A DNA stretch of 64,000 bases from Isoetes taiwanensis (lineage: Eukaryota; Streptophyta; Lycopodiopsida; Isoetales; Isoetaceae): assembly GCA_021234155.1 (NCBI GenBank), contig JAJEKV010000098.1:53742-117741 (forward strand), in the 5' to 3' direction. The position numbers and the translations under genes are program-made. Each line of letters opens with the position of its first letter. The stretch's first letter is position 1. The notes beneath the pieces were generated by a model. That model saw only the letters and a program-made list of their open reading frames with translations. It made no database searches and was not told the DNA's origin. Shown piece after piece: positions 4,290-53,640 of this stretch.

Positions 4290-6253
4290 ACCCTACATAA
4301 ATTTACACTCGGAGATCAGCTGCAACAAAAATTTTAGGGATTCCCCTGGCAATAAATGGCACTATCCATGGTCTTTGGGATCCAATTGTGTCCAAAATTA
4401 AGAGGAAGCTTCAATTGTACCCTTCCACTCTATCTTTAGCAGGAAGAGTTGAAATTGCCGCTGCTCGTGAAACAGGGGAGGTCTTGGTTGCAAGGACCTT
4501 TTCATCCGTGCCCATGCCTTAGGCGCCAAGATAACTGGAGGGGGGCATACTCTGGACACTCCCCAACTCTAAAATTGATCAAGTACTAGGTTGAAGAATC
4601 ATTACCTGTGGGTAACAAAACTACAAAGCACCTTCTTCCAGATTCAACATTCTTTAAGGTAATCCCATGCTCAAATACTTCTTCCATAGTTAGGAGAATG
4701 CTTGATGCCTGGAACCAAGCTGCTCTCGCCCTGTGCCTCCAAAGTGTTGGATGCAAGATGCAAGGAAATTAATTTTTTCTGGCACCCCGATTTAGCACCA
4801 GAAAATTGTGGATGTTTGGCCCTCCAACATCCCCAAAAATATATGCAGTGGTTACAAGCAGGATTTAGAACCTTTGGGGACTTAAGGACTGAGGAGGAGA
4901 ACAGATGGATGACATGGCAGGAGATAGAACCAAGACTGAAAGGATCAGCTTTAGACAGAGAAATCTACAATAGGGTTATGGAAAAAATGGCCCCTCAGCA
5001 GGATCTAGCCTCTAACTCAATGGTTGGACACAAAATAGGAAAGACTGTTATGTAGTCAGACATTTACTCTGCTCTTATTCAACAGAGACCTTCCAGAGCT
5101 TGTGGATTATGGAATTGTGAGGAAGATGCTTTGGCCAAAAACTATGCAAGGGGTTGGAGAAACTATGGTGCACCAAAAATTACTCTTTTTAGATGGATAA
5201 CCCTGCACCAAAGCCTTCAAACTAATGTCAGGAGAGCCAAGTATGACCCTGGTACCTCTAGTTTATGCCCTTTGGGATGTGCGATGAATGAGGATTCCAA
5301 TCATGTCTTCTTATGCCCAAATATTGAGGAAATATGGACATGGACTTCTCAGCTTAACTTAGGGACTCCAAGTAATATTTTTCAGTTCCTAAACACAGGG
5401 TCTAGGCTTATTAACACTTGTAGAACTCTTATCTGCTGGATTATATGGAGGCATAGAAATAGGGTCTGTGTGGAGGGGAAAACACCTGATATTATATGGA
5501 TTAAAACCAATCTGCCCACCATTATTCAGCAAACAGCTTCAGCTCATAAAGCTCTCAGAGGAGCTAAATATGATAAAGAATGGGATCGAATTGAGAGGTT
5601 TAAGGACATTTCCAATTTCTTCTTTTTAATTCTAATTGATTATGATGGTGTGTTACACAAAGCAGCAGAGGAGATTGAAGAATCTGGGAGCCCCTCTCAG
5701 ATGGTTGAGCAACAATGAAGATGATGATTTTTACATACCCAAGATGGAGCTTGAACAACATTTCATACTTCTAAAAAAGGAAATGATTCATTCTATGGCA
5801 ATTAAGAAGGCCGATCGAATTCGAGGTCCGAGGTTCAATAGCTTGAAGCCTTTTTTCCAATCACTCTTCCACAAGTGGCAGCAGAAAAGGGAGGCCCGGG
5901 TGCTTATGTTGATGGACTATACCACATTCACAGTGGAGGAGTTAGACGAGCTCTTGAATATTTTTGGCAAATCTGATGTGGCCGAATTTACATGCTGTGG
6001 TGATGTGCTTGAAGCCAATCAGTGACTTAAGTTGGATGTCGATTTTGTCTAATGGGCCTATCTAATCCTTCTTCTTTAGGTTTAACATATCAGATGCGTA
6101 CCAATATGGCTTATGTCCTTTCTTATGCTTTTTCATAAAGGGAGGATCATAGTTTTTGTGACACATATATATCTTCCTAGTATGGAAGATTCTGACATGA
6201 TGTATTCCATGTAAAATGAATACAAAACCCACCTTGCCTTCAAAAAAAAAAAA
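4290..6253 (+). mobile_element. 5'-truncated L1-type LINE (ORF2 C-terminal half)
   Basis: A degraded copy of a plant L1-type retrotransposon. At about 4330-4460 the thumb of the reverse transcriptase is visible (LGIPLAINGT, then PSTLSLAGRVEIAAA, matching the family's YLGIP...LSLAGR block). At 5131-5718 lies the zinc-binding RT-associated domain (CPLGCAMNEDSNHVFLCPN: Cys-x3-Cys-x7-His-x3-Cys), followed by the usual Trp-rich stretch with ICWIIWRHRNRVC. A further frame at 5700-6025 carries an acidic and basic C-terminal part. A 3' UTR and 12 A residues close the copy at 6242-6253. The 5' part, including endonuclease and most of the polymerase, is missing, as expected of incomplete target-primed reverse transcription. 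Stops and frameshifts make it inactive. Confidence 0.85.
5131..5718 (+). pseudogene. LINE ORF2 zinc-binding RT domain fragment
   Basis: An open stretch of 195 codons in the C-terminal third of a LINE ORF2. It begins with the KNYARGWRNYG and LFRWITLHQSLQTN blocks that precede the zf-RVT domain in plant L1 proteins, then the Cys/His cluster (CPLGC...NHVFLCP) around residues 48-66, then WTWTSQLNLG and the Trp/Arg block. It has no start of its own; the upstream frame (4702-5055) belongs to the same protein but is separated by a stop near 5053. It is a fragment, not an independent gene. Confidence 0.8.
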
Positions 6254-21989: not shown

Positions 21990-23102
21990 TTAAAAATCTG
22001 CCTCCCGCAATTTAGTGGGTATATATTTCACATCTATTTCTCCCTTCTCTACCTCATCTCGAATAAAATGGTGATGGACTTCTATATGCTTAGTTCGTGA
22101 ATGGCAAACTGGATTTTTGCTCATTGCTATCCCACTTTTGTTGTCACAATAAATTGTAGTGGCATCCGCACATGACTTCCCTAACTCTCTGAGCATTCTT
22201 CGCAACCAAACGATGTCTGATGTCGCCAGAGAGCCGCCATATTCTCGCCTGCCTTTGGACTTTGCTACACATTCTTGCTTTTACCGCCCATGATATTGCC
22301 GTGTCTCCAAGTTTGCAAAGATATCCGGATGTTGACTTTCTATCATCAATGTCTCCTCCCCAATCAAGACCGCATATCCAACTAAATTATTCTCCATACT
22401 CTTTGAAAAACGTAGTCCATGGGTTAAGGTACCCTTTAAATACCTAAGAATTCTTTTTGCAGCTATCCAGTGCTCCCTTCCAGGATTATTCAAAAATCTA
22501 CTGAGTAGATTAACAGCATAAGCAATATCTGGCCTTGTGCTATTCGCTGCATACAACAAACTCCCAACCAATGACCTATAAGGTCTGCTTTTCATTTCCT
22601 TTTCCTCTTCAGGTGTTTTCGGACACATCTTTCCTGATATTTTTACTCCTGCAACCAATGGTGTTTTTGCTACATTACAGTCAAGCATCCTGAATTTGAC
22701 TAGCATTTTCTTGATATATTGCTCCTGGGTAAGATATAACACACCCTGAGCTCTGTCCCTTCTTACTTCCATTCCAAAGTTTAGAAGATCTCCAAGGTGG
22801 GTCATTTTTGGCTTCTCAACAACAATTTATACTTATCCAAAGGCTTTGTCATTACTAGCAATGGCGCAATCATCAACATATAATGCCATTATTGCGCTTT
22901 ATCTCCTTCCTTTTTCATGTAAAGGTTTCCTGCTTTTCAATTTGATGAATCCATTAGTAACCAAAAACCATTTCATGCATAAGTACCATTGCCTAGACGC
23001 ACGCCTAAGTCCATAAATGGCCTTTCTTAACGCACACCATATCATTACCTTGTTCGCCTCCATGAGGCTGCTCCATATAAATTTCTTCTTCCAAGTCTCC
23101 AT
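21990..23102 (-). pseudogene. Copia reverse transcriptase and RNase H, broken
   Basis: Reading from right to left: RT fragments near 23102-22899 (KAIYGLRRASRQWY, matching the KALYGLKQAPRAWY block), the catalytic YVDD motif on the minus strand at about 22873-22890 (ALYVDDCAIA), a long frame at 22805-22281 with SRPYRSLVGSLLYAANSTRP, then DIAYAVNLLSRF and HWIAAKRILRYLKGT (RT/RNase H connection), and RNase H end with IYCDNKSGIAMSKNPV and HIEVHHHFIRDEV at 22205-21990. At least two frame changes separate these parts. Confidence 0.9.
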
Positions 23103-24007
23103 TCAAAGCGGTCTTGACGTCCATATGACTTAGTTCCATGTCATTCTCAGATCGCAATCGCTATAAGGGCCCTCAAACTAGTCATCTTAACAATAGGCTA
23201 AAAGTGTCTTTATAGTCTATCCTTCCAATCAACGTGATATCCCTTAGCAACTAAGCGAGCCTTGTACCTTTCTAATGATCCATCGCTTTTTTAATTTTAA
23301 AACCCATTTACTACCGACCACGTTCTTATCATTTGGTCTCGGCACTAAGTCATATGTCGTTACGCTTTTTGAATGAATCTAATTCATTCTTCATTGATTC
23401 CTTCCACAAGTTTGCATCCGCCTCGCCATCGCTTCCCCTCTTGCTTTTGGTTCTAAAATACAAGACAAGACTTTAGGTTTTCTAGGTCTTGTTGTTTTGC
23501 CACTTTCCTTTCTCGCCATAGGTATCCGTGATCAAACGGGGTGAGACTTTAGACGTTCAACCTCAACTGGGCCGGTGCTACTCACTACTCCTTTGGGTTT
23601 CTTGATGACAGCCTTTCATCTCCTCCCCGTTCCTTTCGGCTTGCCTTTGCCGGTCTCTAAGACCTCATGCACCTCCTCCTCGCCTGCAAGATCTTGCCCA
23701 TGCAATGCACTATCGATCTCTATGACTTCATGCACCACATCGGACTCTATGTTTGCTTCATGCATCACATCCGCTCTATGCCTACACCGCTCCTCACAAC
23801 TTGGTCCTCGTCACCTTCAAGCTCAAATTCATCTTCCTTCGCAAGTGTTTGTTTCCTTTGAACTGCCCATTGGCTTCCTCGCTGTTTTGAATTATTATCT
23901 TCCAAATACTAACTCGTATCCATTCCATTTGTCTCCGCGCTGTTAAGCAATTTCTGCCTTTGTACAAAATGTTTTCGTTAAATATCACATCTCTACTAAC
24001 ATGTATT

Positions 24008-25438
24008 TTACGGTATTGGGATCATTATAACTTTTTTGTAACCATTTGTTTCTTCATCATAACCCACAAGAAAGTTGAATACGCTTCTATCGTCCAATTT
24101 CTTCCTTAGCTCCCTCCGTATCAACATATAAGCCAGACATCCATAAACTCTGAAACGCCTCACTGACTGCTTTTGTCCAGTCCAAAATTGTTCTGGTACA
24201 CCTCCCTTTACTGCTGCACTAGGCAATCTATTTTGGATGTGACAAGCTGCCGCCACCGCTTCTCCCCACAAGCTATTAGGTAGGCCTGCATGTTTAAGCA
24301 TAGATCTCGCCGCATTCATGATGGTGCGATTCTTTCGTTCCGCCACGCCATTTTGCTGTGGCGTATATCGACATGTGTATTGTCTTCTTATCCCATGTAC
24401 CTGACAAAACCTGCAAAATTCACTTGACCTATATTCCCCTCCAAGGTCAGATCTTAAACATTTAACCTTAAATGATGTTTCTCTTTCAACTTCCGCAACA
24501 TAGAGTCTAAAGGCATCAAATACTTGGTCTTTGGACCGCAAAAAGTAGCACTTAGTCCTTCTACTATAATCATCAATAAATGTCGCGAAATAAGACTTTG
24601 ATCCAAGGCTTTGAACTTGCATTGGACCACAGACATCCGAATGCACTAATTCAAGCAATTTATGTGCCCTCTTACCTTTATTTCTGAAAGGTATTCTACT
24701 CTGTTTGCCTAACATGCATGCCTCACAAACATCATCATGACTTTCGTCTTCACACACCAAGTCATCCAAAAGATTATGTTGTTCTGCAATTTTAATACTA
24801 TTGTGATTTGCATGCGCCAATCTCAAATGCCAAGTATGCAACTTATCTATGGGAGATATCTTATTAATCGACTTAATATCAAATTCAAATAGATTTCCCC
24901 TTCTTTCAGCATCAAATAGTTTCACACCATCCTTAATAAACTTGCAACCATGTTTATGAAAAAACAAATCATAACCATTATCAACAAGATTGGCAACTGA
25001 GACCAAGTTAAATAACATTTCGGGTGCAAACAAAGTATCTGGCAAATTTAAAACTTCCTTGCCTTCTCTTGATACCTGCAACTTCCCCTTTCCATACACC
25101 TTTTGTGTTGCGCCATTTCCCATTTGCACCTTTGAACCACCTCGACTTGGCTCAACATTTCTCAACAAGTCAGATGAATTGACTATGGAGACTTCAGCTC
25201 CCGAATCTACAGTCAAAGTGTTAGTTTTATCCAATCCCCCTTTTAAATCAACATTTGATACTACATTTCTCATAGATTTTATATTGGAGTTTATTACCTT
25301 ATCCTCAGCAAGCATTCCTACCGCTGCTAAATCTTCTTTACCATCATCGGTTTCACTTATGGATGCTACAAATGGCTCTACCTCTTCCTCGTGCATATGA
25401 CCCCTCGTCCACGACCCCATTTTTTTCGATTGGGACAC
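24008..25438 (-). CDS. Copia polyprotein segment: protease and integrase
   Basis: 476 codons without a stop, the largest open frame of the window. The aspartic protease motif is TVDSGAEVSIV (about residues 76-86). The GAG pre-integrase block follows (WHLRLAHANHNSIK, then CEACMLGKQ), then the integrase core with HSDVCGPM, FIDDYSRR, LRSDLGGEY and PQQNGVAERKNR, carrying the D-D-E residues, and the C-terminal GYDEETNGYK block. The frame has no true start: it continues gag and is out of step with the zinc knuckle upstream, so it is a piece of a broken polyprotein. It could still encode a stable fragment but not an active element. Confidence 0.93.
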   Translation of the reverse strand: MSQSKKMGSWTRGHMHEEEVEPFVASISETDDGKEDLAAVGMLAEDKVINSNIKSMRNVVSNVDLKGGLDKTNTLTVDSGAEVSIVNSSDLLRNVEPSRGGSKVQMGNGATQKVYGKGKLQVSREGKEVLNLPDTLFAPEMLFNLVSVANLVDNGYDLFFHKHGCKFIKDGVKLFDAERRGNLFEFDIKSINKISPIDKLHTWHLRLAHANHNSIKIAEQHNLLDDLVCEDESHDDVCEACMLGKQSRIPFRNKGKRAHKLLELVHSDVCGPMQVQSLGSKSYFATFIDDYSRRTKCYFLRSKDQVFDAFRLYVAEVERETSFKVKCLRSDLGGEYRSSEFCRFCQVHGIRRQYTCRYTPQQNGVAERKNRTIMNAARSMLKHAGLPNSLWGEAVAAACHIQNRLPSAAVKGGVPEQFWTGQKQSVRRFRVYGCLAYMLIRRELRKKLDDRSVFNFLVGYDEETNGYKKVIMIPIP

Positions 25439-26203
25439 TCCGCTTTTATATGCCCAAATTCTTCACAACCATAGCAATCAATTTGTGTTCTTCCTCTTCC
25501 TGGGCTCCCTCGGCCCCGACCAGATACAACACAGTGGGGTGTTCCTCTCTACGAGATTTCTCCCTCGCACTTACCTCTGCAATCTTCTCTTGTTCCATTT
25601 CCGTTCTTATCGCCTCTGACTTTATCAAACGCCGAGAAATGCAGCCTAACTAGCACGAGCCAAATCTTTATAAGAATCATGAAAAGCTCTTGTCAAATAA
25701 TACCTTCTGTTGCTCGAATATTTTACTCCCGGCTCCCTCGAGATCATCATGAAACAAAGAACGATCCACAGATCAAATCCGTCACTTCTCCACCCTTCTC
25801 GAGCGTAGAATTCGCGAACTTGTATCTCCAAAGACTTCAATCTGGCGAGGAGGTTTTAAGCCTCATATCTTTCAGAAGATATTCCCACATCTCCCGAAGG
25901 AGATTTGTGCTGAATTTCAAGCACTATGTCTCCTCCTAATTTCGCCATAATGATCGCATTTAGCAATCTCTTCCTTTCATCCTCGTGAGATCTCTTCCTT
26001 CTTCTCTTTCCTCGAGCAGGCGAAGCCTCTCTCTTTACTTTGATTGGTGTCGCAGTAACTTTCCTTTTGACACAAGACCCCACATTTTTGTCAACCTTGA
26101 GAGCTTGTGAAATCATAGCTTTCCACAACCGAAAACCGGCTTCATCTCCCTCGAAAACTTTGGTGCCGCCGAGTACGTCGGTGCAAGCCCGCCGCCATGG
26201 CAC
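25435..26203 (-). pseudogene. Copia gag with CCHC zinc knuckle, broken
   Basis: The gag start lies just inside the primer site (VFEGDEAGFRLWKAMISQAL near 26150-26090, matching the family's F-G-D-x-x-x-W-K block). The zinc knuckle reads CYGCEEFGHIKAEC at about 25437-25478 (Cys-x2-Cys-x4-His-x4-Cys), followed by PNRKKWGRGRG. An A-run just after it is the likely site of the shift into the protease frame. Several more breaks occur between 25600 and 25900. Confidence 0.85.
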
Positions 26204-31482: not shown

Positions 31483-31756
31483 ATTTCTGCACGTAACAAA
31501 AACTCCAGTTCTTGACGCCTTTTTCTGTCCTTTGTCCCTTCTTCTTTGCCTCTGGAGAAGAAGCCGCAACAACTCTAGTCGAATTGTCGAACTCAGCTTT
31601 CTTTGAAATTTTGTGAATCGTCCGGACTACAAAGTGCATCTGAGTTTTGGCTAGAAGGGAGAAGGCGGAGCGGGATAAAAACTTGATGATGAGAGCTAGG
31701 GCCGTTCTGGAGAAAGGAGCCAAATCCATTTGTTGGAAAGAAGCCCTAAGCTCCAT
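31457..31756 (-). other. Unidentified 99-codon frame
   Basis: Minus-strand frame with a basic C-terminal part (SSPEAKKKGQRTEKG). Its 3' end overlaps the 57-bp duplication. No domain is recognised, and there is no start context or neighbour that supports expression. It may be the first exon of a lost gene or chance. Confidence 0.2.
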
Positions 31757-32482
31757 ATCCGGTAGAAATAGAATACCGCGATTTCATCTGCCGGAAATCG
31801 AATACCGTGGCTTGGCTTAAGAAAGAGTTTTAATCAATTTCACTTGATTCATTTATGCAAAAAAATCGCTTACTGCAGTAGCTTGCATTGTGCCTAAAGG
31901 CATTCATCCAGTGAAAACCCCCTTCTGAAATTTTTTTGCGAACCTCCTGCTTTCAAACACAACAAAGCTATAGTGCCATGTCCTATTGTTGTTGCTCAAT
32001 TCCTTTTGGGCTAAAAAAACTTTTAAGTCTGAAAGCATTTAGGATTTTTTCTCTATGATATTTGTATCTGAGAAAACCTCTATTCTACTTCATTTCCTGT
32101 TAAGAAATGAAGCCTCTGGTGGATTGCACGTTTCCAAGATCCATAGGGCTTCTCCGGAGAATCGAAAACCAAAAAATCTCATCTAGCCCAAACCCAACCC
32201 TGTGCATGATGGGAAGGTTGGGGGTCATTATCTTTGAGGACGGGATCTCGAGAAGGAAAACCAAAGAAAATAGAATTGAATAGCATAAAAATCTGTTGCT
32301 AATCCTCCTCTAGAGCAGTTGCTAATCTGTTCCTCTCAAATTGTGCATCTCTTGCTCCAGAGTCTAAGATCGATGCGATAATCGATTTTCGAAGGTCTAG
32401 TCAATTCGATTATTTTAAATATGGCAACAAATCCTACGGTATAGTTTATATTCATGTCTAGCGGTGTTATACGCTCCGCTAT
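31757..32482. other. Spacer, nothing recognised
   Basis: AT-rich, no open frame with a domain and no clear repeat. Confidence 0.5.
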
Positions 32483-32663
32483 TATTGAAAATAGGCCTCG
32501 CATGTCCGTCCAGTCCCTCTGATCCGCCTCTTACGGTCGTGCCCTCTTGTTTACCGATCACGCCTCTAGAGGCATATATATGTGAAACTCGGTGAGGGCT
32601 CTTCTCACCATTCTATCTATTCATATCCATTCTAACCTGCTTTGTAGATCTCGATTTTCTACA
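32483..32663 (+). repeat. 5' LTR of gag-only element
   Basis: 181 bases aligned with 33801-33979. Shared landmarks: TTGAAAATAGGCCTC, GATCCGCCTCTT, CGATCACGCCTCT, GAGGCATATATATGTGA (a TATA-like box) and CTCTTCTCACCATTCTATCT. It ends TTTTCTACA before the primer site. Confidence 0.9.
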
Positions 32664-32674
32664 TGGTATCGAGC
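32664..32674 (+). other. Primer binding site (TGGTATCGAGC)
   Basis: Directly abuts the 5' LTR. Same 11-mer as in the Copia at 26206-26216, one base short of the usual initiator-Met site. Confidence 0.85.
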
Positions 32675-32989
32675 ACAGCTGGCTATTGAAGATGCAGGAG
32701 CATAATTGGAGCGGCGATTCAAAAGCTGTGGCGCATCCTTTCAAGAACAAGAAATCGCGGTTTGATATTATAAAAGCTTACGATTTTCTTTAAGTTTTTT
32801 ACCATTTGCCCAACCGGGCTCACGGCTTGCTTGGCCTTTGTGCCCTTGTCCTTAGTGGGTCTTGGTGGTTTGCTTTATCGAGTGGGGAGACTCTTTAAGC
32901 AAAGAATATAAAAAGAAGAAGATCTTGGTGGATATATATGGCAATTTACGGTGCAACAAACAAATTATTGAGTTCTATCTCACCGCTTG

Positions 32990-33750
32990 ATGGAAAAATT
33001 TGATGGAGATAAATTTTATATTTGGAAGATTCAGTATCAATTCTTTGCTGCTAGAAAGAGAGATTTGGTGAAGATTGTAGATGGCACATAAGCTAAACAC
33101 TGCAGATGCCGATCTTTGCAACTAAGTGGGAACACAAAGATGCCAAAGCCCGAGCTATTCTTCAGCAATGCTTGAGTGATAATCTCGCACCAACGGTGAT
33201 TGCTTTTACAACTTTGCTAAAGAAATATGGGACTTCTAAATAGCATTTATGGGGATAAAGGGAAGTCCACAATGGAATTATTCTTCGAACCAAATTATTG
33301 GATTTGAAACTGAAGTGGCACCAATGTAGTTAGTTTTGTAAGCCGGTATAATGCTTTCTGGTGACAATTAGCATCCATAGGTTCTCCAATTGGCGATGGC
33401 GAAGGAGTGGCTATACTTCTTAAAGATTTACCACAAATCTTTGATACTTTGTCATATAATCGCTAAGTAACAAAGCTTTAACGCCTCATGATGTAATTCA
33501 AGCTTTGCTTAAGGAGGATGCAAGGCAGAAAACAAAAGAAGGGCCATCGAATGCATTCATTGCTTTCGAAATCAGCCCGGAAGAGAAAAGAACTTGTTAT
33601 TATTCAAGAAGCGGCCATATGATTCTTTGTTTGTCGAAGAAGAAGAAGAAAAGAAGAGGAAGAGTCAAGGAAAAAATGGCTCTAAATTGTTTTAGCCTGA
33701 GTGGGAGCTATGTGAGTCCGGTGAAGATCTGTGTGCTTTGTGGTTCTTAG
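32990..33750 (+). pseudogene. Copia-like gag, broken
   Basis: KFDGDKFYIWKIQYQFFAAR near 32998-33060 matches the gag start block of Copia elements. After frame breaks, the frame at 33505-33750 holds a zinc knuckle with a changed core (CYYSRSGHMILC: Cys-x2-Ser instead of the second Cys, His kept, last Cys kept) followed by a lysine-rich run. The lost second Cys and several stops point to decay. Confidence 0.75.
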
Positions 33751-33800
33751 TGATCAGTCGTAAGTCATATGTAAATTGTGGACATTTGAGGCGTTGGGAG

Positions 33801-33979
33801 TGTTGAAAATAGGCCTCTGCATGTCCCGTCCAGTCCTGATCCGCCTCTTGGCACGATCGTGCCTCTTGGCACCGATCACGCCTCTCGAGGCATATATATG
33901 TGAGCTACGGTGAGGGCTCTTCTCACCATTCTATCTATTCATATCCATTCTTCTGCCGTAGATCTCTGATTTTCTCTGA
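33801..33979 (+). repeat. 3' LTR of gag-only element
   Basis: 179 bases starting TGTTGAAAATAGGCCTC. It is diverged from the 5' copy by several substitutions and indels, so the insertion is not recent. Confidence 0.9.
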
Positions 33980-33983
33980 CTAT

Positions 33984-34839
33984 GGCTAAAAGAGGTGAGC
34001 AATTTATCGAACTATTTCTTCAAATCTTAATCCACATTCATGCATCTTTGCGGTGACACTCCCATTTTTAGAAAAATAGATAGATGGATTGGGTTTTCTC
34101 AAATTTCAGATTATGGGTCCAATGAATTGGAGCATTAGTGGCAATCTATGGATGTGCAGGTGCCCATAGTTTACATGGGTGACACTCGAGATTTTCTTCC
34201 GGCAGAGGTCACAGATTTCCACCATAGCTCGCTTCAGGCATTGGGTAGAGTAAACCATTAAATGCTTGCCGCGAGTTCACATTACGTTTGAGGAGTTTAG
34301 ATCAGAGTTCATAAACTCTGCTTTTTTATTCTCTCGATTCGATAGAATGGTTGATTATTAATCTTTCCGAACAACAAAGAGGCCAAAATTGAGTCAATCG
34401 TTTATAGCTACAAGCATGCTTCAATGGTTTTGTTGCACTACTTTCTGAGGATGAAGCAACTGCAATATCATGTTACATTTCTAACTTTTTTTTGGATCGG
34501 CGACTTGCAATAGGACCTGGTTTCCTTCCATCTTATTAGAAGTCCGAAACTCTTGAGTGCGGGATTGAATCCAGTGACAAATCTCGATCTTCTTCCGCGT
34601 TCCTTCCGGCGGATAGACTCCATCTATCCGTCTCTGCGATACAAAAAGGATATAAAGCGATTCGAGGGCGGAAAAGCCGAGCAACCAAATTCAACTGAAG
34701 ACCAATTGGCATCGGACCAATCGAGGGCAACCATCATTGCACGCCACGGGCTCTTTGCTTTTCGCGGCGTATGTATTCTCGGAAGTCCAACAGTTGAAAG
34801 AAAAAGTAAACATAAATCCTTTGATTGAAGCTCCAAATT
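33984..34839. other. Spacer with no recognised gene
   Basis: Several overlapping short frames at 34480-34836 on both strands (GC-richer than the surroundings) but no domain, no splice structure and no repeat pairing that I can see. Confidence 0.4.
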
Positions 34840-34930
34840 GATTAGTAGGATTCTATTGGCAAGTAGGATTCTGGGTAGAATTTTGTTGGTAAGTAGGATT
34901 CAGTTGGTAAGTCGGATTCTGTAATGATGG
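34840..34930. repeat. About 20-bp minisatellite (AAGTAGGATTCTG)
   Basis: The unit GGTAAGTAGGATTC or close variants occurs about five times. The minus strand reads as a degenerate Leu-Pro-x-Glu-Ser-Tyr repeat; I take that as a by-product. Confidence 0.8.
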
Positions 34931-36061
34931 ACAAGCACAATCTGCTGGAAGAGACTGACCTGTAATTGATATTTACAAGCAAATGTAAAGAGGACAAATT
35001 TAAACGTAAAATAATTACCCTTACCAACAAATTTAGCTTGTTAAGGACAATTCTACTGACAATCAGACTGTTGCAAATGCAAAGAGCAATTTAAAAGCGA
35101 TGTTGTGCCTCTGAAATTTGAAAGTTCGCCTCTTTTGCAATGGGTTCAATGACTTTGGGCACCTCTTTTGCTTTTCCAACAGCAATGCTCAAGCCTGTCG
35201 CATCTTCTATTTCTTCAAATGATGAATTCCAGACTTCTCTCTCCTCTAGTACCAACACTTTCCTTGAAATTGTTGTTGGCACTTCAACATTCTTATCAGG
35301 CTCACGCACTATGAAAGCAAAGCAACAAAAAAAGGTGAATATACAAGGATTGAGAATGACAACGAAAGAAAGAACTTACTATTTTGGCGCAAGGAAGAAA
35401 TTGCGGACGTATATAAGATTCTCCACCAGCCTTAAGACTTGCTTGCATTGCCATCATTAGTTGTTTATCAGAATGATCATAATTGCGTAGTGTTTCTACT
35501 CGTTTGTGGCCAGTCAAGTCTTTCAGATTATCATAATACCTTGTAAATGACCCTTTGTAATGGCATAATGACGCAAGCAAACATTTGAGACACGAAAACC
35601 TGAAACAGAAAACAGAAGAAAAAACCATTTATTAAAGCTAAACATTAAGAATAATACACAAAAATAAAAACCACTTACCAAGTAAATTACTCATGTGTTT
35701 TTCGACAGTAGCAACTTTATTAATACCTAAATTGCAACTTGCATACCAAATTGCATTTCCTCCTGCTATGCTAGTCTTGGCTGCCAAAAGAAGATGACGC
35801 TCTGAAATATCCTCATGAGGAGCAATTGGTGGTAAACAAGAGAAATATTTTGTAAATGTCATATACACATCAGCATTCTATTCTATTCTATTAATGTGTT
35901 CATAAACCTCAACAGGTTTTCTAATATCTGATTCCTTGCAATTGTTAATATTTCCAGGGTGATTCTTTGAGGGCTTCTGCATAAACCTACAACATAAGAA
36001 AGGGATTCAGAAATAAATCAGAATATCAAATAGGGATAATAAGGAACAACAAAGAACTAAC

Positions 36062-36394
36062 CTTACAAAACGACCATAATGGTCTTCAAGAAGTTCAAAT
36101 TCAACAAATTTTGTCTCATATAACTTCCTACCGCCACGGATTAGAAAGTTTATCATGCAATAAAGCATAAAACGATTTAACAACCCATTTGGTGTTGATA
36201 ACGAAAACTCTTCTGCGGACAAAAGTTTCATAAGATTCAAGCGTTGCTTCCTTGACTGGGCAGCAACAATTTTTGCAATGACATGATTTGCTGCCTCCTT
36301 GGCAGCTGCAAAGAAGGGATGCTCAAAAATATTAATATCAGGCTCGTCCATTGCTGTTTCCCATATCCGAGTTCTACGTCCCTCTCTCAACAAT
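36062..36394 (-). pseudogene. Tyrosine recombinase exon with first catalytic Arg
   Basis: An uninterrupted exon between an acceptor (TTTGATTTCAG just before 36394) and a donor (GTTAGT at 36061-36056). It joins in frame to the upstream exon (donor GTAAGT at 36639) and to the downstream exon (acceptor TTATGTTGTAG just before 35986). It encodes the region from LLREGRRTRIWETA to LEDHYGRFV, including the Arg of IRGG. The matching phases at both junctions are good evidence that the introns are real. Confidence 0.85.
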
Positions 36395-36639
36395 CTGAAA
36401 TCAAATAATGCTTTGATAGCTACAATAATGTTTAAAATCTGCTATAAAACCTGCTATAAATCTGCTACAATAATACAATAAATCTATAATGCTATAAAAT
36501 CTGCTACAATCAATAGTGCTATAAATCTACAATAATACAATAAAATCTGCTATAAATAATCTGCTATAAATCTGCTACAATAATGTTTAAAATCTGCTAT
36601 AATAATGTCCAACAATAAAATCTGCTACAACAAACTTAC
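36395..36639 (-). repeat. Intron filled with CTGCTATAAAT-type repeats
   Basis: 245 bases bounded by GTAAGT and CAG on the minus strand. About half consists of CTGCTATAAA, TCTGCTACAATAAT and variants repeated ten or so times. Repeat expansion in the intron of the recombinase gene. Confidence 0.75.
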
Positions 36640-37399
36640 CTCCCAAAAGTGGTCAAGAAATCTTTAATTATCGTAGCTCTGTAGGGTTTCCCATTTTTTT
36701 GCACAATTTGTTGGATAAAGAAGACTAGATGCTGTCCAAATTCTCTCATGTCTGTTAGATTGAATTCTTGAATGCGTTTTTGGCATGTTGATGCACCAAA
36801 ATGAGCACCATATCTGTTCCTCCACTCATAATATCTTTGTGCATATGCCTCATCTTTCCTTTTTGTTGAAGCCTTCTTATCAAATCTAAGACACACCTAC
36901 TCATCAATCTCAAGAAATCCACATTTTTTGCTTTTTCCAAGCTCTTCATTTTCAAAGTCTGAGTCTGAATCAAGGAAATCAATTGGTAATGGTAGAGCCT
37001 CTGGTATTTCTTCCTCATTCACATGCTTTTGAATCCTCTCAGGCTTCTCTAACGAATTTCCATCCAAAGCAATGCCTTTCATCTTGGCTGCTTCTTTTTC
37101 TGTCCTTTTGCAGTCTCTCCTTGTTTTTTTTTTTGTCCTCCTAAGTTTTCTCCTACAGAGTCTTCAAACTCTTCTCCGATGGAAAATGATGGAACATCCA
37201 TAGTAGACTGCATAAAGCACATAAGAATGTTAAAGTCTAGTCTACAAACGAAAAAGCGATTAAAGATTTTGAAAGCAGAGCCAAAACTTACACAAATCGC
37301 CAAAAGCGGAGCTCAAAAACCTAAAACTGTTCAGAACGGCAAAAAAAAATGGAATAGGGAGTCTTCGGCATCAATCTTCCTCTAAAAAAGTAATCACAA

Positions 37400-37525
37400 G
37401 CTCGCATCCGGCATCTGGCATTCGGCATCTGGCATCCGGCATCCTGGTGCCTACATCCTTTGCCAGATTTGAGGCACCTACATCCTTTCCCGGATCAAAG
37501 GTAAACTTTCGGATCGGTTTGTTAA
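37400..37525. repeat. GGCATCTGGCAT short repeats
   Basis: CCGGCATC, CTGGCAT and TTCGGCAT words recur between 37405 and 37445, followed by two copies of CCTACATCCTTTGCC or CCTACATCCTTTCCC. No gene. Confidence 0.7.
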
Positions 37526-37642
37526 AAGGAATACGGCCTTCTCCCTCGTGTGTTATGCTAAAAAAATTGAGCCATTTTGTGCATGGCCAAAACGACCCTC
37601 AATTTTTTAGCATAACACACTCCGGAGTTAGGCCGTTATCCC
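37526..37642. repeat. Foldback element, about 115 bp
   Basis: Inner arms 37548-37571 and 37598-37620 (GTGTGTTATGCTAAAAAA, then TTGAG, against its reverse complement) pair with one indel around a 26-base loop. Outer arms at 37528-37539 and 37630-37641 share an ACGGCCT core. It has the look of a miniature foldback or MITE. Confidence 0.85.
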
Positions 37643-38234
37643 TCTCATATTTTCCCTTTCCACATAATTGTAACTACACAAAAGAAACCATTTTATGGTG
37701 ATCCATAATGGCCACAATCTAAGCCAGGAGGTAAGTTGGTAATTATCAGTAAGTAGGTTGGTAAAGTGCTTAGGTAGTGTATCAATGATCAATTCTCCAT
37801 AGGGTTTGTAGGAAACATCCACGAGTAAATTCTATACAATTGCAAATGTTGTTGTAGCAATTGTTGGAAGTACGTAGGTAGTATATCAATGATCAATTCT
37901 CTAAAGGGTTTGTACGAAACTTCCACGAGTAAATGTTATTAAATTTGCAAGCGTTGTCGTTAGCAATTGTTGGGGCGCTTTTGAACACGATATGCAAAAT
38001 CATCTCTTGATTATAAATTGCTTATGAAGCTAAATATCCAAAACCGCTTATGAAGAGGATTTTTTCAAACCTTTTTCAGATTTTCAATAGAACTGGTTTG
38101 TTGATTTCCCTCCTGGTTTGGGTAACATTACAATTATTTCGAAGTCAAATAGACGTAATCCTTTAAAAAGTAGGCAATGCAATGTCAAAGGTTATATGTT
38201 AATAGTGGGTCTAAACTGATAGGTTTGGAACCAA
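37643..38234. repeat. Spacer with 104-bp tandem duplication
   Basis: Copies at 37771-37867 and 37875-37974 share TAGGTAGT(G/A)TATCAATG, ATCAATTCTC, CCACGAGTAAAT and a GTAGCAATTGTTGG or GTTAGCAATTGTTGG end. The rest of the stretch is unremarkable. Confidence 0.85.
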
Positions 38235-38277
38235 AGAAATGTTCGCGGCGGCCAAGGCCGCCGCGATAAATTTCTTG
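38235..38277. repeat. GC palindrome in an AT hairpin
   Basis: CGCGGCGGCC, AA, GGCCGCCGCG (38244-38265) is a perfect 22-base inverted repeat. The flanks AAGAAAT and ATTTCTT extend the stem. A decayed copy with the same flanks lies at 51391-51435. Confidence 0.9.
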
Positions 38278-38713
38278 TATTTGATAATTTGTTTCATGAA
38301 ATTACAAACAAGTCATGTAAGATAACATATTTATCCCATTCCAAATTTATCGTCTATAGAATTCATAGGTTGTATTTCGTTGGTCTTCTTATGACCTTAT
38401 GGAGTGTGCCACGCCCTTATAAATGCTTCTATTATAGTATTGCTACTTAGTTTGATGTATCATGCTGCAGGTAAAATATCTAATACTTGACCTACTACTA
38501 TTTCCACGCATTTTTGCTCCCATCTTGACATATTGCAAGGTGTTTGAACATGGATGATTGCTTAGGATTAATATTCTTTCAAGTTAAAGCACATTAAGAA
38601 ACGTGCCGGGCATTAGTAGTGGACGTGTGAAGGCATTTATGTGTGTTAGTCGTGGTTGTATCATGAACGTGTGCAATGCATCCAAGGGAGTATATGCTTA
38701 GGGCAGTATATGT
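38278..38713. other. Spacer, nothing recognised
   Basis: AT-rich sequence without a domain or repeat that I can support. Confidence 0.5.
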
Positions 38714-39027
38714 TTAGGTGCAATAGACAGATATAGACATGGAACAAACTTTACCTTTAAAGTGTACACATATTATGAAGTATAAACAAAATCTTAAACA
38801 AATATACTGGGTCTTTATCATAAATACTGTATCGACTTTCCATGTCAGACAACTTTCGAGTTTCATAACAATTAGATGACCATCTTGCATCAAGATTGTG
38901 CCAAAGCCATACAACTTGCATCAACATATAACAAGTAAAGTAGACCAAACATTGACAAACGTAAAACGAAAGAATTAACCATGGCATCCTCTAAAACTTG
39001 AAAAGCCAATTGATGATTATGATTGCA

Positions 39028-39466
39028 TTAGAAAGGAATATCTTTTTGTAGCAACAAATAAAGATCTGAGGCTAGATGAGCAAAATTTTGTACAAACTTC
39101 CTATAATATCTGCATAAGCTCAAAAAGGAACGTAATGCAGCAACCGATGTCGGTATCAGTAAATCTAATATCTCATAAGCCCAAAAAAGAACATAATGCA
39201 GCAACCGATGTCGGTGGCAAATCCACAATTAATTGTACCTTATTGGAATCCACTTTAAGACCCTCAGTATGACCCAAATTTCAATTGCACTGAGTCATAG
39301 ACCCCTCCTTTAGTCGACGAAAAACCTCTCGCAAATGCAAATAATAGTCTTCCTTGGACTTACTAAGAACTAACATGTCATCAAAGAAAACAACAATATA
39401 AGCACCATGCGCATCTTCAAATCTTTGCCCCATTAACCTCGCAAAGAAGCTAGTGCAATCGAACAC
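39028..39466 (-). pseudogene. Gypsy reverse transcriptase fragment
   Basis: FFARLMGQRFEDAHGAYIVV, then FFDDMLVLSKSKEDYYLHL, carries the Asp pair of motif C (usual form FLDD or YIDD). After a frame break it continues with the conserved P-x-S-V-x-x-L-R-S-F-L block and YYRKFVQNFAHLASDL. A 61-bp duplication (39109-39154 and 39170-39215) interrupts the connection region. Inactive. Confidence 0.85.
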
Positions 39467-39519
39467 AAGCTACTTTCTTACTTTTGTCCTCTTTCTTAGT
39501 CCTTTACTTGAAAACATAC

Positions 39520-40427
39520 TTAAGGTCATTTCCCACTTGCCATTAAGTTAAGTTAAATAGGACAAATAACTGGAACTTGCTTTTCCACTGACCCTTAAGT
39601 TAATATCAGTTAAGTTAATTCCAGTTAATTTTTAACCGTTCATTAACTTAACGGAGCATCCTTCTCACTAGAAAAAGTTAAGTTATTTTTTTAACCAAAT
39701 TTAAAAATATTTAACTTAAGTGACCTAAGCAAGGTCCACTTAACTTTTAAATTTTTGGTTAAGCATTAAGCTAACTTAACTACAAGTGAGAAATGGTTCC
39801 AGTTAGGTTAGACTCTTAAATCGTAATTTTGACAAGGAGGCCAATTAGTTGACCGTGTCTTATTAGTTTGATAGATTGAATAAAAAACATTAAAATAGGA
39901 GGTGGATTTTAAGAATTTTATGATTAATTGACTGGTCACGTAGTACTTGACTAGAAAGTATTAAAATGGAGAGAGTTGACTACAAGTCAACTGATTGGTG
40001 AGAAAGTGTCTAAGTTAACCAAAAGTCAACTCATTGACTAGAGAGCCAACCACTTTACTAGATTTTACTAGGTAGTCAAACAATTCACAAAAATAGTAAC
40101 TTGACAAAAAGGTCATGTCCTCTATTTAACTTAACCGTATCTCTTAACTGAAGTGAGAAACGAACACATTTATCTCTAACCTAACAAAACTTCTTAACTG
40201 CTAGTGTGAAGCACAAGCTCATTATAAAGGTTAGGTTAAGTTGATTTCATGAGCTTAACCTAAGTGGTCCATAATTGGTATAGTGTGAATGCATATCTTC
40301 ACAATCTTTTAAGTTAGTCTTATCTTAATGACTTTAATGGGAAATCACAACCTACTTTCCGTTAAGTTAAGAGATAACCAATTGGTTAAGTTAACCTAAC
40401 CTAATTGCGAGTGGGAAACTACCCTTA
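39520..40427. mobile_element. 0.9 kb inverted-repeat element rich in TTAAGTTAA
   Basis: The left end (TTAAGGTCATTTCCCACTT, then GCCATTAAGTTAAGTTAA) matches the reverse complement of the right end (TAAGGGTAGTTTCCCACTC, then GCAATTAGGTTAGGTTAA). The interior has dozens of GTTAAGTTAA, TTAACTTAA and AACCTAAC words in both orientations, and inner copies of the GTGAGAAA word next to them. There is no open frame of note. It lies between the Gypsy zinc knuckle and reverse transcriptase, where protease should be, so it inserted into or replaced that part. Confidence 0.7.
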
Positions 40428-40446
40428 GTTTCTTTACTTTCCATTT

Positions 40447-40710
40447 TTACTTCTCGAGATAAGTAGGACATTCATAAAAATTATGGTCGGTTGAATAACA
40501 TACAAAACACTTATTCTCTCGCATTAGCAGGATCTTGTGTGCATGGTAAGATTCCTTCGGCTCCTTAGCCCCAAAGCCACTCGCCTCTTTCACAGACACC
40601 TTGAGGCCTCGTTGAGTGTTAATTGCTTTCATTATCTGCAAGCATGCGTGCAGTTGTTTGAATTGCCCCAGACCCTGTCGCAGACCCCATTGGTTTCTTC
40701 CAAAAGCCAC
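40447..40710 (-). pseudogene. Gypsy gag zinc knuckle with internal duplication
   Basis: The C-terminal part reads KCFVCYSTDHNFYECP (Cys-x2-Cys-x4-His-x4-Cys). A nearly perfect 60-base stretch (CCAAAGCCACTCGCC to AATTGCTTTCAT on the plus strand) is present at 40571-40632 and again at 40703-40762, so the gag frame carries a duplicated block. Confidence 0.75.
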
Positions 40711-41093
40711 TCGCCTCTTTCACAGACACCTTGAGGCCTCGTTGAGTGTTAATTGCTTTCATGAGGGCCAAACCTTCCTCTTCTACTTTCTCTGCCTATT
40801 CTGAGGCTTCGCCAAAAGAAATATTTGCAACTTGAAGAACGAACTTCTCCCCGCCCAAAGATGAGCGTCACCCATGAGTTTTTCGGACTTGTCGATTATT
40901 GTTTTACTAAGCTAGAGTCCCTTCTTTAAAACACGGGCAGCGAAGGCTCGAACTGTTTCCACGTTTCCTTGGGCCATTTATTCCATTCAGCGATAAGATC
41001 TCGGCTCCCAATTATGGCTCAAAAACAATCTTTAGATTGCTTTTCAAATTCGGCAAAAGGCATTAATGGGCGGAGATCGGTAGGTTGGTCCTT

Positions 41094-41369
41094 CTAGATC
41101 AGTCCCTTTGCAACACCATCTAGATGGAGATCAACGGAATATAATTGAGTGCTTCCGTCATCCTTGGTTTTGGCAAAATATGAATTCAAATCCCACAGCC
41201 ATGTGAAAAGCCCATCTGCATCAGAATATGTTTTGACTTCAATTTTGACATTGGCACAAATCTTGATGCCACTATGTGGACGCTCTGCGGCCCAGAATTT
41301 GCAAGCATGCCACCGTGCATTGAATAGACTCCAGCTCTTATAACTCAGCAAGAGCATCGGCAACTGCAA
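41094..41369 (-). pseudogene. Gypsy gag-like frame
   Basis: 91 codons with a Trp/Phe-rich part (LFTWLWDLNSYFAKT) resembling the retrotransposon gag pattern W-L-x-x-x-x-x-Y-F. Lies about 110 bases inside the primer site, which fits the position of gag. Confidence 0.6.
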
Positions 41370-41475
41370 GTTTCTTCTTCATGAGCGAATATCATTCTCT
41401 AACTCAAACAGTTTCTCCTTGAGTTCCTCTTCTTTAAAGTTAGGATTTAGGAAGAATTGACCATTGAAACTTGTT

Positions 41476-51732: not shown

Positions 51733-53640
51733 TACAAACCAGAGCTCGCAATAGCTAGATGTGGCTTCCCTTCGTCTTCTCAACCATGTCATTGACTCAA
51801 CTAATCCAGAATACATAAGGAAAGCAAAGGTGTGTAGTGTGCCAAGAAGACCTCCTAAAGTTCCTGCACAACCTATTCCCCATGAAAGTAGCCTTTGCTT
51901 CTGGATAGTATAGCAGAGAAACCTAGGTTGAGGTATACTTTCTGATGCCGGGTTCTCCATGCTTTCAAAAGGCATCTTTGTTAATCTGGTGATATCTTCC
52001 TGTTAAATGACATAAACCACCAACTGAGCATGTAGTTTCCAGGTACTTTTCTTGGTATTTTACAACCTGCTGGTAGGTATTTGTACAAACAGTCCTCTCA
52101 TAACCTTTCTTGTTGTACTTGTCAATGTAACCTGTTAATTGAAAATACGTATCATCCTGCAAAATGCAAAATGATGGTGAACATATTTCTTGCATCAGGA
52201 AATTAACCCAAAACAATAATGAGGAAACCTCTGCTTGAGAAAATGCTGGTTGCCTTACCCCTGTAGGTACATCTAATTGCACACTGCTGTAAGACTTGAG
52301 GGCATAACCAGGTATTTCATTGCAATAATTTGTCTTCCACTTGCAAAGCTCTTGCAGCTCCTGCGAATTCAGCTTATTACTCTTCCATGCAAAAAGATCT
52401 TTGCATTGGTCATTTGACACGTTTGCGGGAATTTCTAAGCACTCCACATAAATGGGATCAGATGGATTGTTATACTGAGTCAGATTGGAGCATATATATA
52501 GTTGGCATAGAGCACACGGTTATCTGCTCAATGTCTTTGCATTGAGTACCAACATTGGGATATGAATTCTGTAATTGCAACCATGTTGCAGTGGCCTTTT
52601 CAACTTCCATAAAGTTGTAAGTTACCAGTTCATGATTACTTGAATTTTTCACGACAGCCAGCTGTAATTCTGGTAGGAGACTTATGGATGGACTGAAGAA
52701 CCCAGAATCGGAAATGATTCCGACATTCTTAATGGCGGAGTTGTTCAGAACTGTTTGCAGCAGATCTAAGTATTGGCTTTTGTCTTTGCTAGTAAATGCA
52801 GCCAACATGCAGCGGGCATGGTATTTGGACTTTGAGGAGGAAGGGCAAGAAGTGGCATTATTGTTCAATTTTTTGCAGAATATGGCAACTTGCATAAGTT
52901 GAGCACATTCATTTGCATTACAACAATCAAATTCTAACTCTGCTCCAAGGCCCCAGTCTTCAATGGTTCCATTGATTTGGGATATCAGAATTCGCTTCGG
53001 TGACACTGACAGTATAAAGTTATCAGGAACAAGAAGACTAGAGTAACACAAAGACAACTTGAAAATAAGTTAAAACAAATACTTACATGGAACCTCGAAG
53101 TTGTTAGGATCAATCTTGATAAGGAAATCCTTGCTAATAGACCAAGGCCTTGAAGTACCAGAAATATTGGCAAACCCTAACCATGAAACAGCATCCTGGC
53201 TTACAATAAGCCCATTATATACCTGCTTCTCTCTCACCTCCACACTCTGATCAATCTTTCTAACATTTTCTAAAAGCTCTGGAACGGTACCATTTGAGAA
53301 CTGCACAACATTAACAGTGGATACATCTCCATCCTTGACAGAATAACATCCCCTCAAACCAGATCTATTCTTCTCCAAAGAAGAAATGCCCTCAAGTGGC
53401 AGCTTACAGTCACAATGATACCCTACAGGCATGTTTTCTAAATCATGCATATTAGAGACATGTTTGTAGCGGATTTCGTCAGGTCTATTCTGGAACTGTA
53501 TTACAGCCACAGTGATAATTATTGCAATCACCAGAAGACAGTAGAGGAAAGTGAAGAAAAAATCAAAAAAAAGGGTAAGGGGAAGACTGGTAGGATGGGA
53601 TTTTGAATAAAGTCCATCCTCTTACAAGCTCGCCATTTTT
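51733..53640 (-). CDS. Unrecognised membrane protein with large Cys-rich outer domain, probably broken
   Basis: Minus-strand gene with good introns. First exon region to 53087 begins with a hydrophobic helix (FFTFLYCLLVIAIIITVAVI), then CDCKLPLEGI and N-glycosylation sites (NGT, NIS). Introns: 53006-53086 (GTAAGT, then CTGTCAG) and 52157-52258 (GTAAGG, then TTTTGCAG), both keeping frame. The middle exon has a Cys-rich part (DCCNANECAQLM, CKKLNNNATSC). The last part has many Cys and ends with a second hydrophobic segment (GIGCAGTLGGLLGTLHTFAF) and an Arg cluster. Two termini in the membrane with a looped outer domain is my inference. Frame changes near 52500 and 51990 and an early stop at the 5' side suggest a pseudogene or sequence errors. 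Family unknown. Confidence 0.6.

Follow-up and report, generated by a model that had tools for sequence, protein, structure and literature searches.

A degenerate, intron-containing tyrosine recombinase gene in Isoetes taiwanensis, very probably a dead Crypton copy

What kind of sequence is a decayed, intron-interrupted tyrosine recombinase (YR) gene in the genome of a lycophyte? The original prediction for this locus was a dead Crypton/DUF3504-like recombinase, which could be a mobile copy or a fixed old host gene. We examined the locus within its window, the 64,000-nucleotide stretch of Isoetes taiwanensis DNA that was analysed, which lies in contig C1109, and across the genome it comes from (1,658,258,908 bases in 1110 contigs).

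On the minus strand at 35089-37201, reading frames together with motifs and splice signals delineate a degenerate five-exon gene for a DUF3504-type YR. Exon 1 (36640..37201) encodes the N-terminal part and the core-binding region and contains a frame break in a poly-A run as well as one TAG codon, and exon 2 (36062..36394) supplies the first catalytic arginine within the motif FLIRGGR. Exon 3 (35679..35986) contains a further TAG, exon 4 (35380..35599) carries box II (VxxR), the GHK motif, the final tyrosine, and one internal frame break, and exon 5 (35089..35308) encodes a C-terminal tail with no Pfam match at E 0.01. All four introns begin with GT and end with AG, in agreement with the four junctions first proposed: intron 1 (36395..36639, 245 nt, GTAAGT...CAG), intron 2 (35987..36061, 75 nt), intron 3 (35600..35678, 79 nt), and intron 4 (35309..35379, 71 nt). 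Phase is kept across introns 1, 2, and 3, and intron 4 shows a one-base discrepancy, so the earlier count of two matching junctions was too low. The introns are 68-76% AT, versus 59-65% for the exons. Within 35091-37303 the plus strand has no copy of the donor motif GT[A/T]AGT and the minus strand has five: each of the four donors carries one, and the fifth, at 37291, is perhaps a donor in the 5' leader. Because of the two TAG codons (exons 1 and 3) and the two frame breaks (the poly-A run of exon 1 and exon 4), the copy in the window is dead, as originally predicted from two TAGs and at least two frame breaks. Intron 1 consists mostly of short tandem repeats resembling AGCAGATTTATA.

The spliced protein of the window copy matches the Pfam family DUF3504 (PF12012) with E = 2.4e-5 and a score of 24.9 bits, short of the curated cut-off (29.7), and a six-frame Pfam scan of the unspliced frames of 31500-41400 gave no DUF3504 match at E 0.01. 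Three better-kept relatives were scored as spliced, X-joined proteins: A10 reached 27.1 bits, under the DUF3504 cut-off, and B24 and B27 each reached 30.8 bits, over it. Against Phage_integrase (cut-off 27.1) the same three scored 16.5, 23.3, and 27.5 bits, respectively, with only B27 above the threshold. A PF12012 search of the genome, with 16 candidates scored, yielded two loci, both over the cut-off, on contigs C31 and C606; these are loci L033 and L027 of a second family, family B, which is distinguished here from family A, that of the window copy. Comparison proteins were obtained with an animal-type DUF3504 query sequence, which matched 704 proteins; among the 120 of 704 matches listed, the named species are corals and anemones, and nearly all of the proteins carry PF12012 plus PF25561 or PF00589. 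A profile built from these 120 proteins gives the window protein 20.6 bits, compared with 6.3 for the best of 2000 shuffles, and reports no match to the reversed window sequence. The domain match on the spliced exons, though under the curated cut-off, the profile score, and 65 genomic matches (see below) bear out the prediction of a Crypton/DUF3504-like recombinase with introns in a plant genome.

In alignment with the animal-type DUF3504 proteins, IRGGR provides the first arginine in the window copy and likewise in B24 and A13, and these two relatives align over both the core-binding and the catalytic parts. The SNVCLR motif of the window copy falls on the HxxR box with valine in place of histidine, GHK falls on GHK, and the tyrosine of LRNYDH is the final tyrosine. 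The catalytic residues expected in related copies are thus partly present: the arginine of IRGGR, the box-II arginine, the histidine of GHK, and the final tyrosine are there, and the box-II histidine is replaced by valine in family A and by lysine in family B, leaving the R-H-R-Y set incomplete. The altered box-II position argues against a textbook enzyme. Some archaeal virus integrases have lysine at this place.

An AlphaFold2 model of one animal DUF3504 protein, of middling confidence (mean pLDDT 66), is closest in the PDB to QRICH1, Cre, XerA, and the integron and lambda recombinases, at low TM-scores of 0.30-0.34 by query length for the top matches. This model may be taken as evidence for the relation of the DUF3504 family, not for the window copy itself. 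The window protein was also compared with a protein collection in a search that requires shared 5-residue words and similar length; none of 3227 candidates reached E 0.1 and, in a further search, none of 223 reached E 10. Among viral contigs, one pattern-matching stretch in one search and 61 in another included no confirmed relative, and the same was true of 40 such stretches in prokaryote genomes. By sequence, the PDB returned no relatives, one further search giving only PmgA at E 1.3, which we take as a chance match. NCBIfam gave just two matches (E 0.06-0.08), far under their cut-offs, and Rfam gave none at gathering cut-offs.

The gene lies inside a longer unit with defined ends. With 65 DNA matches to the region in the same genome, the window included, the sequence forms a dispersed family, and sister copies share exact ends, a fixed 5' end (37645 in the window) and a fixed 3' end. 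The window copy (34792..37645, minus strand) therefore extends beyond the recombinase gene; its 5' end is complete and abuts a TATG core at 37646..37649, and it is truncated at 34792 with the 3' end missing, as it also is in L015 and others. The 5' end pattern occurs at 20 places in the genome with no more than two mismatches, and a reversed-pattern control occurs at none. We compared 20 5' flanks, comprising 18 of these 20 places (C912 and C930, with two mismatches, were left out), the window, and L012. All 20 ends are preceded by A[T/A]G, a motif with a background frequency of 0.046 in the window; the full cores are TATG (12 of 20), TAAG (three), GATG (two), and CATG, CAAG, and GAAG (one each). 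Three pairs share flanks (C1056a/b, C921a/b, and window/L009), which leaves about 17 independent 5' flanks, one of them a head-to-tail junction at L016. Because their 5' end is missing or altered, L013, L014, L015, L017, and L019-L023 do not enter the count.

In L010, L011, L012, L013, L014, L018, L019, three short derivatives, and C907, the 3' end is TTTGTTA[A/T]G with a G next to it; L016, the one other copy in which this end was read, has TAAAG and then A. These readings include duplicates, namely L011/L014, L012/L013, and C907, which repeats an insertion at C1056. An inverted counterpart of the 5' end motif is absent from the 3' end and from the rest of the loci searched, so there are no terminal inverted repeats. 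Just inside the 5' end, a self-match reveals a subterminal foldback, an imperfect inverted repeat at 37533..37636; folded as DNA, 37525-37650 gives -34.6 kcal/mol (z -9.65), and none of 200 shuffles is as good. The foldback is present in other copies, and family B, with a similar build, starts with a foldback carrying the same CATGGCCAAAATG word as family A.

Some copies are duplicates of longer blocks (window/L009, L011/L014 together with L023, and L012/L013), L009 duplicating the window locus over about 11 kb. Divergence was calculated for eight body sequences with gaps excluded. It is 2.0-5.0% in the 15 pairs formed by the window, L010, L011, L012, L013, and L018, and 6.2-14.6% in the 13 pairs that include L014 or L015.

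Three loci hold short derivatives of 792, 991, and 630 bp in which both ends are kept and the YR is absent; they match the long copies only outside the YR exons. For the derivative insertion at C1056, a search with the joined flanks gave 23 matches, and six of these places were fetched: five are paralogous stretches without the element, and the sixth is the same insertion. The five empty sites read TATG followed by GG, and the occupied site reads TATG, element, TATG, and then GG, so that the only repeated motif is the 4-bp TATG. One core copy at each end and a single core at the empty site, the arrangement by which a Crypton is recognised, is thus found at this insertion, the one for which empty sites are known. 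In the C1045 alignment, two additional bases precede TATG. The joined flanks of L012 returned no empty site. At L016, the 3' end of the element is fused head-to-tail to a 5' end through a single core, TTAAG running directly into AGAGGG, a sequence that fits derivation of copies from circles. The C1056 derivative insertion recurs at L059, on C907, where its 5' TATG is lost.

Family B, comprising loci L024-L028 and L033, allows the recombinase to be viewed over a longer time. The B27 and A10 proteins are 64% identical, and four A/B pairs compared over exons 3 and 4 give pS of 0.77-0.81 and pN of 0.23-0.25, which marks a constrained protein with saturated synonymous sites. Within family B, dN/dS is 0.09 for L024/L027 and 0.54 for L024/L028, and six pairs of recent family A copies give 0.26-0.81; both the value of 0.54 and those of family A rest on few changes. 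Introns 1, 2, and 3, read by eye, occupy identical positions in family A and in L024 and L027; the window was used for intron 3, since L013 has a damaged donor there. An extra intron seems to be present in exon 2 of family B. Retention of introns in two families saturated at synonymous sites argues for movement as DNA and not via spliced RNA. We infer that a second, long-constrained family in the same genome speaks against a single recent arrival.

Tyrosine recombinases are also used by DIRS and Ngaro retrotransposons (gag-RT-RNase H-YR), and the YR could be one half of such an element, with the reverse transcriptase (RT) remnant that lies 1.7 kb upstream on the same strand as its other half. 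The remnants at about 38.9-39.4 kb do stand in the order of DIRS and Ngaro: RVT_1 was the sole match at E 0.01 in the six-frame Pfam scan of 31500-41400, and a closer scan of the minus strand at 38500-39900 added a weak RT_RNaseH_2 match. Both lie outside the element, beyond a 5' end at 37645 that is common to other copies, and the best PDB match of the RT fragment (about 39.3-39.4 kb) is the Ty3 RT. We therefore assign the minus-strand remnant at 38899-39445 to a Ty3/gypsy-like neighbour that adjoins the element. Conserved intron positions do not fit movement through spliced RNA, and the window copy, with its introns kept, has no RT between its ends. Moreover, according to Kojima and Jurka (2011), DUF3504 is not matched by the YRs of DIRS and Ngaro. 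A DIRS or Ngaro origin, the refutation foreseen for an RT next door, is hence scarcely credible. By eye, a minus-strand frame of the 38899-39445 region also contains a zinc-knuckle-like CxxC...H...C stretch.

Alternatively, a host gene domesticated in the manner of KCTD1, ZMYM, or QRICH1 might have left this pseudogene, and segmental duplication might have spread it. Protein constraint between families A and B, their common introns, and the several copies that are duplicates of longer blocks would all suit such a gene. Against it stand insertions at different sites that share a core and have exact ends, together with empty sites and gene-less derivatives. Animal host genes with DUF3504 have, according to Kojima and Jurka, lost the catalytic tyrosine and the second arginine; the Isoetes copies retain the final tyrosine and the box-II arginine and are dispersed. 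Overall this explanation is extremely improbable, and for family A the empty sites and the derivatives rule it out, so the suggestion of a fixed old host gene falls there to a multi-copy unit with fixed ends. Very unlikely, too, is a passenger role for the YR gene within another transposon, such as one with hairpin ends or with a DDE transposase encoded elsewhere. The long foldback at the 5' end and derivatives that retain the end regions only are what such an element could leave; against this, the window copy holds no RT, DDE transposase, or other Pfam domain at E 0.01 between its ends, comparison with the empty site shows TATG, 4 bp long, as the only repeated motif, and a circle-type junction exists. 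Contamination, including the bacterial contig that would have undone the prediction, was rejected, since copies with introns lie on many contigs of a plant genome, some over 10 Mb. The same genome gives four LEAFY SAM domain matches above the cut-off, and open frames at L029 and L030 carry what we take to be the conserved LFY C-terminal start.

The explanation that we favour is that the window gene very probably belongs to a dead Crypton, a DNA transposon in which the sole recognised enzyme is a Cre/Xer-like DUF3504-type tyrosine recombinase, and that the element family probably moves with this Cre-like recombinase. A short common core, empty sites with a single core, a one-core junction, and gene-less derivatives are what would be expected from a tyrosine recombinase acting via a circle. 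By analogy with Cre and Xer enzymes, and with a proposal of circle formation and strand exchange for Cryptons relayed in the text of Kojima and Jurka, the recombinase, made from spliced mRNA, would join both element ends through the core and release a circle. Recombination of the circle with a TATG(G) at another place would then put a single core copy on either side of the element, and derivatives without the YR would move in trans. With its 3' end gone and its frame broken, the copy in the window cannot act. Going further, one may picture an old Crypton lineage of land plants' own, in which the altered active site (lysine or valine for histidine) works and the 5' foldback, an architecture retained by both families despite their saturated synonymous sites, forms part of the attachment site; we regard this extension as unlikely. 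Folded single-strand attachment sites are known from integrons and offer a comparison for the foldback.

Among described Cryptons, the Isoetes element shares its recombinase type with CryptonA and with animal DUF3504 proteins (KIAA1958-like and ZMYM2-like), and non-autonomous derivatives are reported for CryptonA, as they are found here. Of the features that define CryptonA, the DUF3504 domain is present, whereas the absence of terminal repeats and the animal host are not: animal Cryptons lack terminal repeats in the account of Kojima and Jurka, in contrast to the TATG core of the Isoetes element. The Isoetes element further differs from CryptonA in its several introns, its plant host, and the replaced box-II histidine. 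CryptonS, from oomycetes and a diatom, has terminal direct repeats, and most of its elements have TATGG termini, compared with a core that is mostly TATG here; in the Isoetes element, G adjoins TATG on the target side, and at the L016 junction it lies outside the element. The likeness to CryptonS is drawn from the ends, where 12 of 20 flanks read TATG, and the host differs, the Isoetes element itself bearing a 5' foldback and introns. On the best reading, these sequences are a land-plant Crypton that combines a recombinase like that of CryptonA with TATG(G) ends like those of CryptonS, and that has introns, a 5' foldback, and valine or lysine in place of the usual box-II histidine.

The host table of Kojima and Jurka (2011) lists animals, fungi, and stramenopiles and no land plant; a Chlamydomonas sequence appears in a figure legend of that paper, and a DUF3504 protein of a green-alga mitochondrion is mentioned in its text without being analysed there. 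One survey, in its table, has Crypton among the superfamilies present in every group that it covers, land plants included, a plant TE atlas table gives 535 under Crypton, and the repeat table of a Dracaena paper reports 24 Crypton pieces of 1,719 bp in all. A land-plant TE review omits DIRS, and a term search of it did not find the word Crypton. Among the matches listed in our literature search, which covered titles and abstract starts and had subscription journals and Repbase outside its scope, none described a Crypton element from a land plant. The assumption that Cryptons are not described from land plants consequently needs amending: the label has been applied to plants in one survey table and two repeat tables, and described elements are missing from the parts of these sources covered. 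With a land-plant family that has defined ends, a core, derivatives, and empty sites, what has been a loose catalogue label would become an element open to testing. The pairing of a CryptonA-like recombinase and CryptonS-like ends is also relevant to the question of a single origin for the Crypton groups.

The remainder of the window contains other repeats and open frames. A stretch at 32483-33973, with 182-bp direct repeats (86% alike) near both ends, is absent from the duplicate L009, where about nine bases overlap at the join; it is perhaps a short LTR-type element inserted after the window/L009 duplication. About 230 bp at 38498-38730 are likewise present in the window and absent from L009, as a small insertion or deletion. 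A Ty1/copia element occupies 22281-25462 on the minus strand, with gag pre-integrase, integrase, and weak RVT_2 matches, and a zf-RVT match at 5056-5718 on the plus strand marks the remnant of a LINE-like reverse transcriptase gene. At 51965-53621 on the minus strand, three long adjoining open frames with no Pfam match at E 0.01 are possibly exons of one gene.
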